From contig NZ_JAFDVD010000007.1 in NCBI RefSeq assembly GCF_016887965.1, positions 248,001-312,000 of the forward strand: DNA of 64,000 bases, in the 5' to 3' direction. Source of the stretch: Phycicoccus sonneratiae. Its GTDB lineage: Bacteria; Actinomycetota; Actinomycetes; Actinomycetales; Dermatophilaceae. Under the pieces are notes generated by a model that searched no databases, was not told where the DNA came from, and saw nothing but the letters and a program-made list of their open reading frames with translations. Positions 40,791-44,711 of the stretch are shown here, one piece after another. How positions within the stretch are numbered: the first letter of the stretch is position 1; each line of letters begins with the position of its first letter. The position numbers and the translations under genes are program-made.

Positions 40791-41645
40791 TCAGGCGGGG
40801 GCGATGTCGGCGTACCTGACGCCGAGGCCCTCGAGGCGGGACCGGCCGCCGTCGAGCGCGGTGAGCACGCAGGTGCCGGCCTCGGTGACGGCCACCGAGT
40901 GCTCCCAGTGCGCGGCCCGCGAGCCGTCGCGCGTGACGACGGTCCACTCGTCGTCGAGGATCGTGTTGTCCTGGTCGCCGAGGGTGACCATCGGCTCGAT
41001 GCAGATCGTCATGCCGTCGGGGACGCGGGGGCTGCGGCCCTGCACGCGGTAGTTCGGCACCTGGGGGTCCATGTGCATCGAGGTGCCGATGCCGTGGCCG
41101 ACGTAGTCCTCGACGATGCCGTACTCGCGGCCGCGCCGGGTGCCGGCCTCGACGACGGCGTCCTCCACCGCGGCACCCACGTCGTAGAGCGCGCCGCCGA
41201 CCCGCAGCGCCGCGATGCCGGCCCAGAGGGATGCCTCGGTGTCCTCGGAGAGGGCGAGGTCCTCGGGGCGGGCCGCGTCCGGGCCGCCGACGACGACGGT
41301 GACGGCGGAGTCGCCGTTCCAGCCCGCGACCTCGGCCCCGCAGTCGACCGAGAGCAGGTCGCCGGCCTCGAGGACGCGTCCGCCCGGGATGCCGTGGACG
41401 ATCTCGTCGTTGACGCTCGTGCAGAGGGTGTGCCGGTACCCCGGGACGAGCTGGAAGTTGGGGACGCCACCGTGGTCGCGGATGTGCGCCTCGGCGAGGG
41501 CGTCGAGCTCGAGGGTCGTCACCCCCGGGCGGACCGCCGCGACGACGAGCTCGAGGGTGCGTCCGACGAGCAGGCCGGCGGTGCGCATCATCGCGAGCTG
41601 CTCGGGCGTCTTCCCCTCGCACCGGTCACGGCTGAACAGTCCCAT
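40791..41645 (-). CDS. map: Type I methionine aminopeptidase
   Basis: MetAP removes the initiator Met from new proteins. The 284-residue protein has the five metal ligands in context: VDCGAEVAGWNGDSA (two Asp), GHGIGTSMHMDPQVPNY (His), ICIEPMV (Glu) and AHWEHSVAVTEAG (Glu). ATG 41645 gives the usual start. It follows adk in most bacteria; here a DUF559-type gene and two palindromes separate them. Confidence 0.95.
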   Translation of the reverse strand: MGLFSRDRCEGKTPEQLAMMRTAGLLVGRTLELVVAAVRPGVTTLELDALAEAHIRDHGGVPNFQLVPGYRHTLCTSVNDEIVHGIPGGRVLEAGDLLSVDCGAEVAGWNGDSAVTVVVGGPDAARPEDLALSEDTEASLWAGIAALRVGGALYDVGAAVEDAVVEAGTRRGREYGIVEDYVGHGIGTSMHMDPQVPNYRVQGRSPRVPDGMTICIEPMVTLGDQDNTILDDEWTVVTRDGSRAAHWEHSVAVTEAGTCVLTALDGGRSRLEGLGVRYADIAPA

Positions 41646-41653
41646 GCCGCGGA

Positions 41654-41684
41654 ACCCTACCCGCGCCCCGTCCCCCGCCTGAAA
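41654..41684 (-). promoter_or_regulatory. Possible leaderless promoter of map
   Basis: Minus strand TTTCAG (41679-41684), 19-base gap, TAGGGT (41654-41659), eight bases before the map ATG. There is no Shine-Dalgarno. It could let map be transcribed independently after the palindrome cut it off from adk. Weak prediction. Confidence 0.4.
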
Positions 41685-41752
41685 CCCGTCGAGAGTACAG
41701 AACACGCCGCATGGCCCGGGATGCACACGGCGTGTTCTGTACTCTCGACGGG
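41685..41752. repeat. Long perfect palindrome, map-side copy
   Basis: Arms of 25 bp (41685-41709 and 41728-41752) are perfectly complementary around an 18-base loop, CATGGCCCGGGATGCACA. The arm core is AGTACAGAACACGCCG. The palindrome ends one base before the stop codon of the DUF559-type gene. A second copy, with 24 of 25 arm bases identical, lies just upstream of that gene. Confidence 0.9.
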
Positions 41753-41753
41753 G

Positions 41754-42740
41754 TCAGATCTGCAGATGGCGCGGGTCGAGCCGCAGCTCACGGGCGAACC
41801 GCAGGAGGCATGCGGTCCGACGACCGCCGACGAGGACGTCCTCGGCCCAGATCTCGAGGACGGTCCAGCCCTCTCCCTCGAGCCCGAGGCGCCGGGACGC
41901 GTCTGCGCTCCGTCGTCGACGCGACGCGTGGTCCGCGCCCTGGTACTCCCCGATGACCCGCGCCTCGCGCCAGACGAGGTCGCCCTCGGCGAGCCACTCC
42001 CCGTGCCGGTCCGTGACCACCCCGTTGACCTCCGGCTCGGGGAAGCCGGCACGGACGAACATCAGCCGCCCACGGGTCTCCATCGGTGAGCGCACCCCCG
42101 GACGAACCAGGTCGAGCGCCTCGAGCAGCCTCACCTTTCCCCGTGGCCGGACCCGCGCCTCCAGCGGTCGGCGCAGCATCCACTGGGCATCCGGCACACC
42201 GGTCCGGACGGTGGCCACGACGGCGTCCGCGACGACGACGAGGTCGTCGACGCCCAGCCGATGCCCCAGCTCGCCGAGGTCGCACCACGTGTCCTCGGGC
42301 GCGACCACCGGGAGCCCGTGGACGACCGCGGCGCTTCGTCCCTCCAGGCCGCGATGGCCGGTGCAGCCTCGACGCCGGGTGTGCCCGTCCGAGGTGTTCG
42401 CCATGACGTGCAGCGGCCCGTCGTCGGCTTCCTGCTCGAGGCGCGCCGGGAGCGGGAGCCCGTGCAGTCGAGCCGCCGTCAGGTGCGAGAACGCCCGCCC
42501 GTCCGGCAGCCCCGCGAGGTAACCCGCCGCGCGGTCGACGAGCGCGGTCGGCACCGTTCGCACGTGTGCTCCGCGGGTGGGGTGGTGCAGGTCTGCGCGA
42601 CGCAGCCTGCTCGCGGGCACCCCGGCCGCCCGCGCGGCACTCGTGCTGAAGGCACCGCTGCCGAGGCTCTCGGGCAAGTCGGACGGGTGCATGCGGGCCA
42701 GCGTCGCGGCTGTCGCCAGGTCGGCCGCCGGGTTCTCCAC
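41754..42740 (-). CDS. AbiEi-like/DUF559 protein, single gene in palindrome-bounded cassette
   Basis: A 328-residue protein. The N-terminal 60 residues resemble the AbiEi-type antitoxin helix-turn-helix ([20 protein letters not shown], then PTRGAHVR). The last 100 residues look like DUF559, a Vsr-type PD-(D/E)xK nuclease fold: [21 protein letters not shown] gives the Asp and Glu-x-Gln positions, followed by R-rich helix and [17 protein letters not shown]. No toxin partner is adjacent, so a toxin-antitoxin role is doubtful. GTG 42740 is taken as start (six bases after the palindrome); ATG 42691 is possible. No Shine-Dalgarno is seen before either. Function unknown. Confidence 0.75.
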
Positions 42741-42745
42741 AGGAC

Positions 42746-42813
42746 CCCGTCGAAAGTACAGAACACGCCGTCCGGCACGGGGTGCAGACGGCGTGTGGTG
42801 TGCTGTAGCCGGG
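42746..42813. repeat. Palindrome, adk-side copy with damaged arm
   Basis: The left arm (42746-42772) contains the same AGTACAGAACACGCCG core as the map-side copy. The right arm starts correctly (GACGGCGTGT, 42787-42796) and then deviates at 6 of 17 positions just before the poly-G block. The loop CGGCACGGGGTGCA shares GGC-x-CGGG-x-TGCA with the other copy. The damage may be sequencing error rather than true divergence. Confidence 0.75.
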
Positions 42814-42849
42814 GGGGGGCCGCCGCGGGGGGCCGGCGGGGGCCCGGGC
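42809..42849. other. Poly-G/C block at the adk 3' end, probable artefact
   Basis: Runs of G9, G6, G5 and C interrupt the last codons of adk and the palindrome. The adk frame continues without a stop through the palindrome and across the opposite frame of the next gene to 41,788, which is not credible biologically. Same character as the block at 12,047-12,150. Confidence 0.7.
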
Positions 42850-43398
42850 GGAGGTGATCCGCTCGGTCACCTCGTCGACGGCCCCGTCGCCGTCGACGCG
42901 CACGAGCAGGCCGCGCGCGTCGTAGGTGTCGGAGAGCGGCCGGGTCTCGCGGTGGTAGATGGCCATCCGCTCGCGGATGACCTCCTCGCTGTCGTCCGAC
43001 CGGCCCTCGATCTCGGCCCGCTTGAGCAGCCGGCCCACGACGACGTCGTCGTCGACGGTCAGCTCGAGCACGTGGTCGAGCGAACCGCCCGCGGCCGCGA
43101 GCATCCCGTCGAGCGCCTCGACCTGGGCGAGGGTGCGCGGGTAGCCGTCGAGGAGGAAGCCCCGTGCGCAGTCGTCCTGGCCGAGGCGGTCCTCGACGAT
43201 GGCGTTCGTGATCTCGTCGGAGACGTACCCGCCGGAGGCGAGGATCTCCTTGACCTGCTGCCCGAGTTCGGTCTCGTTCTTGATGTTGGCCCGGAAGATG
43301 TCCCCGGTCGAGATGGCCGGGATGCCGAAGTGCTCGGCGATCCGGGACGCCTGCGTGCCCTTACCGGCACCGGGCGGCCCGAGGATGATGAGTCGCAT
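42850..43398 (-). CDS. adk: Adenylate kinase, 3' end corrupted in this sequence
   Basis: Adk converts ATP and AMP to two ADP. The 183 readable residues include the P-loop [14 protein letters not shown], the AMP site [21 protein letters not shown] and the short LID form ([13 protein letters not shown]), with [15 protein letters not shown] after it. Reliable sequence ends near DEVTERITS; family members end within about 10 more residues. The true stop is lost in the poly-G block. The start ATG at 43398 overlaps the secY stop by one base (TGATG). Confidence 0.9.
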
Positions 43399-44711
43399 CA
43401 GCGGAGGAACCCTTCATAGTGACGCTGCTGCAGCTGGGCCTCGATCTGCTTCACCGTCTCCAGTCCGACACCGACGATGATGAGGATCGAGGTGCCGCCG
43501 AAGGGGAAGTTCTGGTTCGCCTCGACGAGGACCAGCGCGACGAGCGGGAGGAGCGAGATCAGCGCGAGGTAGATCGCGCCGGGCACGGTGATCCGGGTCA
43601 GGACGTAGTTGAGGTACTCGGCCGTGGGTCGCCCGGCACGGATACCCGGGATGAAGCCGCCGTACTTCTTCATGTTGTCGGCGACCTCGGTGGGGTTGAA
43701 CGTGATCGACACGTAGAAGAACGTGAAGAACAGGATCAGGCCCGTGTAGAGGGCCATGTAGTACGGGTGGTCGCCGCGCACGAGGTGGGCATTGATCCAG
43801 TCGACCCACCCGGCGTTGACGCCGGTCGGGCTCTGGTTGAACTGTGCCACGAGGGTCGGCAGCGTCAGCAGCGACGAGGCGAAGATCACGGGGATGACGC
43901 CGGCCATGTTGACCTTGAGCGGGATGTACGTCGAGGTGCCGCCGTAGACGCGCCGGCCGACCATCCGCTTGGCGTACTGGACGGGGATGCGTCGCTGGCT
44001 CTGCTCGACGAAGACGACGAGGGCGATGACGACGAACCCGAGCGCGATGACCCCGAGGAAGACGCCCCAGCCCGAGCGCTGCTGGATCTGCCACAGCGAG
44101 GACGGGAACTGCGCGGCGATCGAGGTGAAGATGAGGAGCGACATCCCGTTGCCGACGCCCTTGTCCGTGACGAGCTCGCCGAGCCACATGATCATGCCGG
44201 TGCCGGCGGTCATCGTCAGCACCATGATGAGGATCGTGACGACCGAGTCGTCGGACAGGATGTTCGTGCACGACGGGTTGTTGAACAGCGTCGCGGGGTT
44301 CTGCGCGAAGGTGATGAGCGTCGAGCTCTGGAGGACGGCCAGCCCGATGGTCAGGTACCGGGTGTACTGCGTCATCTTCGTCTGACCGGCCTGGCCCTCC
44401 TTCTTGAGGGCCTCGAACCGCGGGATGACGACGGTGAGCAGCTGGATGATGATGCTCGCCGTGATGTACGGCATGATCCCCAGCGCGAAGATCGACAGCT
44501 GGAGCAGCGCGCCGCCGCTGAAGAGGTTGATCAGGCCGAGCAGCTGGTTGCTGTTGTCCGCGCCGGCGATGCACTGCTGCACGAGCGGGTAGCTGACCCC
44601 GGGGGTCGGCACGTGCGAGCCCAGCCGGAACACCACGATGATGAACAGGGTGAACAGCAGCTTCCTGCGCAGGTCGGGCGTCCGGAACGCGCGGCCGAAA
44701 GCGGTGAGCAC
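43398..44711 (-). CDS. secY: Protein translocase subunit SecY
   Basis: The 437-residue channel of the Sec translocon, with 10 membrane helices. Typical blocks: [13 protein letters not shown] (after TM1), [30 protein letters not shown] (plug/TM2), [31 protein letters not shown] and [16 protein letters not shown] 44711 has GGAGG upstream. A hairpin isolates it from rplO, so secY-adk probably has its own promoter. Confidence 0.97.

Follow-up and report, generated by a model that had tools for sequence, protein, structure and literature searches.

A gene for a predicted AbiEi-Vsr fusion nuclease and its matching long palindromes in Phycicoccus sonneratiae: probably a domesticated, vertically inherited pair

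The adk-map locus

Between the genes for adenylate kinase (adk) and methionine aminopeptidase (map) of Phycicoccus sonneratiae lies a gene enclosed by two copies of one long palindrome; the arrangement was analysed in a stretch of 64,000 nucleotides (contig NZ_JAFDVD010000007.1, positions 248,001 to 312,000), here called the window, and in related genomes. The gene (41754..42692, minus strand) encodes a 312-aa protein in which an AbiEi-like part is predicted to be joined to a Vsr-like (DUF559) nuclease. Downstream of it, a palindrome at 41685..41752 has perfect 25-nt arms (41685-41709 and 41728-41752, 100% complementarity) around an 18-nt loop, and ends one base from the stop codon. The upstream palindrome at 42746..42813 has one intact arm and one damaged arm beside poly-G runs, the arms being detected as 42745-42772 and 42787-42814 with 79% complementarity; neither palindrome is assigned to a strand. 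Both are of one type, referred to as type A: they are 81% identical over 69 nt, their left arms are identical at 24 of 25 bases and their loops share GGC-x-CGGG-x-TGCA, as the original prediction for this DNA had described. A 16-mer of the arm, with up to three mismatches, occurs four times in the window, all within the two palindromes, where 0.32 occurrences are expected; none of 100 shuffles reached four. No Rfam family matched positions 41000-43500 at E values up to 1.

The neighbouring genes, both on the minus strand, are adk (42834..43398, PF00406) and map (40791..41645, PF00557), which agrees with the position claimed for the gene; an AbiEii nucleotidyltransferase toxin gene does not adjoin the cassette. 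In this assembly the adk reading frame has no stop codon of its own and continues to 41788. Of the distances originally given, one base to the stop codon stands, but six bases to the start codon likely does not. Translation from a GTG further upstream, at 42740, would yield 328 aa; the ATG at 42692 is the likely start, because the homologues of relatives align from it, and the right palindrome therefore lies 53 bp ahead of the start.

The copies that relatives have at the position of the right palindrome are better paired than that of the window. As poly-G adjoins the damaged right arm and adk lacks a stop, this better pairing in relatives indicates that the damage may be a sequencing artefact. 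Poly-G runs replace or adjoin one palindrome arm at 42787-42845 of the window, at a second locus of the same genome (L006) and at L071 in genome G004 (G and L numbers denote the genomes and loci compared, G000 being the genome of the window), and probably reflect sequencing failure at a strong hairpin. The damaged arm, a half copy elsewhere in the genome (on C29) and the poly-G stretch of G004 together point to poor sequencing of these hairpins, through which palindrome counts would come out too low.

The predicted protein

The combination of AbiEi-like and Vsr-like parts, proposed from the start, is borne out by the predicted structure of the window protein, in which an AbiEi-like fold is followed by a homing-endonuclease-like catalytic fold of the I-Bth0305I/Vsr kind. 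Residues D238, E249 and H255 are invariant across 45 aligned rows, and the conserved acidic and histidine residues of the Vsr-like part are predicted candidates for catalysis. When 45 members were scanned against Pfam at E up to 0.01, DUF559, MTES_1575 and DUF2726 were the sole families, and no Y1/HUH transposase family was among the matches. PADLOC matches the window protein to AbiEi at E 0.082, and up to 16 of the 45 members match one of its AbiEi models; with that E value, assignment to a named defence family was rejected. An NCBIfam assignment was likewise rejected, the one match being far under its cut-off.

The similarity of palindromes tracks that of the AbiEi-like part (residues 49-198; Spearman 0.43, with the duplicate locus L205 removed and stops entered as X), to which the nuclease part adds 0.006. 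Palindrome similarity thus goes with the AbiEi-like part more than with the nuclease part, a hint only, because both track phylogeny.

Matching palindromes around homologues

Bracketing, defined as upstream and downstream palindromes with mutually matching arms, was scored with one script and one threshold. By this definition 32 of 60 homologue loci are bracketed, compared with 0 of 113 control windows, each a 1-kb pseudo-gene (Fisher p 1e-18), and when flanks were swapped between the loci of this set, close-relative pairs included, 9 of 480 combinations matched. Among loci from named genomes 47 of 80 are bracketed, compared with 2 of 134 neighbouring open reading frames (ORFs) that were called greedily (p 4e-23); both of the latter have their palindrome in common with the cassette next to them. 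The first set was selected from the homologue matches and the second took the best 80 of 186, with at least 15 loci common to both sets, and related loci are not independent in these statistics. In a class-wide search of 98 genomes, 72 of which had matches, 40 loci were picked and 16 homologues are bracketed, in nine families outside the order; swapped flanks, used here as the control, matched in 31 of 1560 cases at the same cut-off. The expectation that such palindrome pairs would also flank other DUF559/AbiEi genes is thereby upheld, and a chance origin of the palindrome unit was rejected on the 16-mer shuffles and the comparison of bracketing with controls.

Bracketed examples come from Phycicoccus, Knoellia, Pedococcus, Tetrasphaera and Cryobacterium, and further ones from Leifsonia, Salinibacterium, Cellulomonas, Microbacterium and Arthrobacter. 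The palindromes diverge widely from gene to gene, yet agree inside each bracketed cassette. Each gene has its own palindrome, and the gene with its two flanks is a unit found across the class. At two Cryobacterium loci (L215 and L235) a third cassette palindrome stands after the neighbouring gene, so that the neighbour is bracketed too. Elsewhere, at L070, L074 and L082, palindromic units around GCACGTGC stand downstream of DUF559 genes that are not bracketed; at L070 the unit CGATAACCCCGCACGTGCGGG is repeated.

Concerted change and inheritance

In the genus, the cassette lies between adk and map in six genomes (in G002 map is beyond the contig end), and the adk-map spacer of G007 holds an apparent relic of the gene's 3' end with a decayed palindrome. 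The adk-map genes of seven genomes form one clade with moderate support (88/86); for the tree, stops were entered as X, and apparently frameshifted copies such as L085 and L087 were kept in one frame, so that their tails are unreliable. Two further orthologous cassette sets exist besides adk-map, and the bracketed genes of the genus stand at three fixed syntenic sites. At these sites both flanks vary by species, yet agree inside each species: within-cassette palindrome similarity exceeds orthologous similarity in 20 of 21, 8 of 10 and 20 of 21 genome pairs, or 48 of 52 pairs summed over the three sites, pairs that are not independent. The count omits L085, where no pair passed the script's filter though two palindromes are visible, and retains L071 and L072 with poor pairs. 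Two old copies diverging separately would be expected to give the reverse. The two flanks, and in good part the dispersed copies described below, change together with the lineage. The original prediction had named unrelated flanks in all relatives holding the gene at this site as a result that would speak against it; relatives do hold the gene there with other palindromes, but the flanks usually match within a species.

The cassette had been described as splitting genes that are normally adjacent. The adk-map junction is indeed empty in 18 of 18 loci of other genera (L134-L151), with gaps of -9 to 36 bp, as it is in G001 (12 bp). Outside this set of loci the site is filled in other genera: homologues occupy it in three Knoellia species and in G032, and a homologue follows adk in Phycicoccus elongatus Lp2 and precedes map in G017. 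At L190 (Knoellia sp. Soil729), L186 and L188, map lies 0.75 to 1.9 kb past the homologue, with extra content in the spacer. In G005 (L128) and G006 (L131, 2106-3229) the spacer contains another AbiEi_4 gene in reverse orientation; that of G006 has its own matching palindrome pair and a C-terminus that looks DUF559-like by eye. In G004 (L127) and G009 (L132) yet another, unrelated-looking gene is present, by eye of the methyltransferase/spermidine-synthase type; the spacer is therefore a place of repeated insertion in the genus.

An actively mobile selfish cassette, comparable to a homing endonuclease or transposon, with the palindromes as its ends and the solitary copies as targets or remnants, is an unlikely account of these data. 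The syntenic sites are fixed within the genus, by which free mobility at genus scale is ruled out, and the adk-map site is common to several genera; the empty sites of other genera are too narrow to hold a palindrome. A homing gene normally interrupts its own target, whereas the flanking palindromes are complete on both sides in many, and both sites in most, of the relatives. Among the loci compared, no recent insertion came with a sister that lacks it, the comparison in which a target-site duplication would show. Phage or plasmid origin was rejected, as 50,697 phage records gave no match and 72,556 plasmids a single weak one. The recent mobility that had been inferred for the cassette is thus not supported: three syntenic sites are fixed, the adk-map genes form a clade, the site is filled in Knoellia and other genera, and phages and plasmids are nearly void of matches.

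Dispersed copies of the palindromes

In the genome of the window, a covariance model of the palindrome finds ten places at E < 0.001, two of them in the cassette, and a pattern search adds a half copy. The other eight comprise four of type A, three of a type B (ACGAGAACATGCCG) and one that is different. These copies follow genes that by eye resemble an accD-type carboxylase, a proton pyrophosphatase and others; the DUF559 match closest to any of them lies on C29, at a distance of about 7 kb. Exact type-A hairpins, cassette copies included, number 5 in G000, 3 in G002, 6 in G003 and 6 in G010, and are present in all 4 genomes that carry a type-A gene versus 0 of 11 others (Fisher 0.0007). For type C, the palindrome of the second site, hairpins occur in 5 of 6 gene-carrying genomes versus 1 of 9 without the gene (p 0.011); their arms contain CAAC in 16 of 16 cases in G010 and 0 of 16 in G005, mirroring the upstream palindromes of each genome's own cassette. 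Type B is present in both of its carriers (8 and 6 copies), 2 of 2 versus 3 of 13 non-carriers (p 0.095). Many type-B copies, L022, L023 and L024 among them, are asymmetric in their outer arms, with TCGAGAG on one side and GACGAACG on the other, while type-B cassettes are symmetric; the asymmetric copies may form a family of their own, with a partner yet to be seen.

The arms of 24 type-A-like copies (24 rows, the half copy excluded) differ by 1.18 positions within a genome and 2.38 between genomes, a contrast reached in 0 of 5000 permutations. Some copies are held in common by descent: the accD-side copy by G000, G003 and G008, of which G010 keeps a truncated relic, and the hppA-side copy by G000, G010, G002 and G004, with a decayed form in G001. 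At the hppA-like site, six congeners (L296, L297, L299, L302, L304 and L305) have an ordinary GGGGCCGG-type hairpin at the palindrome position, as if either had taken the place of the other. Copy location was recorded for 48 dispersed copies, namely the exact type-A and type-B copies outside cassettes plus ten others (the loose model has more), with surrounding genes called by a simple codon-composition script. Of these, 26 lie between convergent genes, 20 between tandem genes and 2 are unclassed, with none between divergent genes and none intragenic; a gene 3' end is at most 40 bp away for 42, and 47 are closer to a stop than to a start.

These locations speak for a rival in which the palindromes are no more than strong bidirectional terminators or insulators, each lineage favouring its own terminator sequence, and the gene is placed between two of them. 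The original prediction had itself named terminators as its alternative, and had counted palindromes at many unrelated operon ends as a result that would speak against it, which is in part what is seen: the nearness of 42 of 48 copies to gene ends agrees with the rival, as do the unrelated ordinary hairpins at the hppA-like site of 6 of 12 congeners and the related hairpins that the loose model detects in 12 of 12 (both strands: G003 60, G008 56, G010 50, G002 47, G011 24, G006 21, own genome 19, G005 14, G004 12, G001 6, G007 6 and G009 1). Termination, however, requires pairing and not a particular sequence, and here the arms are conserved while the loops and the surrounding intergenic DNA diverge. 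Moreover, matching pairs bracket the nuclease family and few neighbouring genes, and the absence of exact type A from the 11 genomes without a type-A gene is not expected of a general terminator. Terminators alone are therefore rather improbable as the whole explanation.

Interpretation

The preferred reading, to which we give a probability of about 0.68, is that the gene and its palindromes are a vertically inherited, probably domesticated palindrome-nuclease pair, which works like the REP-associated tyrosine transposases (RAYTs) and their repetitive extragenic palindromes (REPs) from unrelated parts. By analogy with AbiEi and Rv2827c, the AbiEi-like part would bind each arm, a palindrome thus carrying two protomers, and the nuclease part would nick or cut the bound palindrome as duplex, cruciform or hairpin. 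Repair from another copy after cleavage, or selection for recognition, could then hold the arms alike throughout the genome while the loops drift. The location and pairing of the dispersed copies also suit transcription termination. They may thus have a second role as terminators or gene-end boundaries, which would favour their retention.

Several observations weigh against the palindrome-nuclease pair. A considerable share of homologues are unbracketed: 28 of the 60 (16 have a palindrome on a single side, 3 have one on each side but unmatched, and 9 have none) and 33 of the 80 (28, 4 and 1, respectively), and in the tree one clade of 10 homologues is without any matched pair. The division by type A depends on the exact pattern, as matches to the looser covariance model exist in every one of the 12 congeners; G008, second highest by that model, has no type-A gene that was found, and the four copies inspected there resemble type A. 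In G017, whose gene adjoins a near-A palindrome (GGCCAGAACACGCCG), exact type-A hairpins are lacking. The genome of the window has the gene of the second site and no type-C hairpin, the palindrome there looking decayed, while type-C copies are present in G002, where no gene was found in an assembly of 710 contigs. Type-B copies occur in G000, G002 and G010 without a type-B gene. Copy number is low next to that of REPs, a genome that has a given type holding 3-9 exact hairpins of it, and the loops vary among copies with identical arms, which are therefore not recent transposition copies.

The remaining alternative, in which the palindromes are operators through which an AbiEi-like protein autoregulates itself and a small regulon, draws on the repression of their own promoters by AbiEi and Rv2827c via 23-bp inverted repeats (PMC7319586) and on the palindrome directly upstream of the gene, but it is distinctly improbable, as the downstream copy is likewise conserved, 47 of 48 dispersed copies are closer to a stop than to a start with none between divergent genes, and operators offer no account of a nuclease domain whose candidate catalytic residues are conserved.

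A broader version of the palindrome-nuclease pair has AbiEi-Vsr fusion nucleases across the Actinomycetes, with their cognate long palindromes, as an undescribed class of genome element that homogenises or spreads palindromes at gene ends and has converged on the RAYT/REP way of life. This extension is tentative, its chances falling slightly short of even. RAYT/REP is, to our knowledge, the best-known case of a bacterial enzyme gene living with dispersed cognate palindromes, and a second, independently built case with a nuclease of the Vsr/homing type would mean, if true, that such a way of life evolved more than once. In that case many orphan AbiEi/DUF559 genes of actinobacteria would gain a suggested function, and many natural protein-palindrome pairs of divergent specificity would become available from which recognition could be decoded by comparison.

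Comparison with known systems

RAYT genes are described as having two flanking REPs in every case, which co-evolve with them; the genes keep their position while the REPs change, and they correlate with the number of cognate REPs (Nunvar et al., PMC2817692). REPs are located mostly downstream of genes, according to PMC3733652. The comparison with RAYT/REP that was drawn originally holds for the logic, namely flanking pairs and concerted change, but not for the parts. Alike are the placement of the gene between two palindromic repeats, co-evolution at a fixed position and the dispersed repeats mostly 3' of genes. Unlike RAYTs, which have a Y1 (HUH) tyrosine transposase, the 45 members scanned here have none among their Pfam matches. 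The arms are mostly about 20-30 nt, compared with REP stems of 5-13 bp, and the unpaired GTAG/CGTC tag of REPs was not seen by eye. Exact copies are few per genome where REP copy number is high, and cognate palindromes flank both sides in 32/60, 47/80 and 16/40 homologues rather than in all. On whether repeats occur where their cognate gene does, as with RAYTs, the types disagree: exact types A and C go with the gene, type B and the matches of the loose model in all congeners do not.

AbiEi and Rv2827c bind 23-bp inverted repeats (PMC7319586), similar in length to the palindrome arms, and the AbiEi fold is predicted here as well. The pair differs from AbiE and Rv2827c in that the window gene has adk and map as neighbours instead of the AbiEii toxin, in the appended nuclease domain, and in palindromes that stand on both sides and are dispersed. 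With the Vsr-like nucleases and I-Bth0305I (DUF559, MTES_1575) it has the predicted nuclease fold in common; unlike these, the nuclease is fused to an AbiEi-like part and its gene is intergenic, not in an intron or coding sequence. In contrast to a homing endonuclease the gene does not interrupt its candidate target, both candidate sites being intact in most relatives, and in contrast to an insertion sequence the bracketed genes occupy three syntenic sites, not differing sites in close relatives. CGTC-tagged REPs are also palindromes without a known dedicated transposase (PMC3733652); they have 8-9 bp stems with an unpaired tag, unlike the palindromes here, and are reported from Proteobacteria, Chlorobi, Bacteroidetes, Spirochaetes and Thermotogae.

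No paper on a pairing of AbiEi/DUF559 genes with palindromes was found in a literature search outside which most subscription papers and bioRxiv preprints fall; a DUF559 Vsr-like protein of Caulobacter is treated in PMC12907096, where the word "palindrom" does not occur. The features tested place the pair outside RAYT/REP, AbiE and the homing endonucleases. Its novelty lies in the parts, since enzyme and repeat are both unlike those of known pairs in the tests made, while its logic is RAYT-like and its action on DNA is what we infer from that logic and from the predicted folds.
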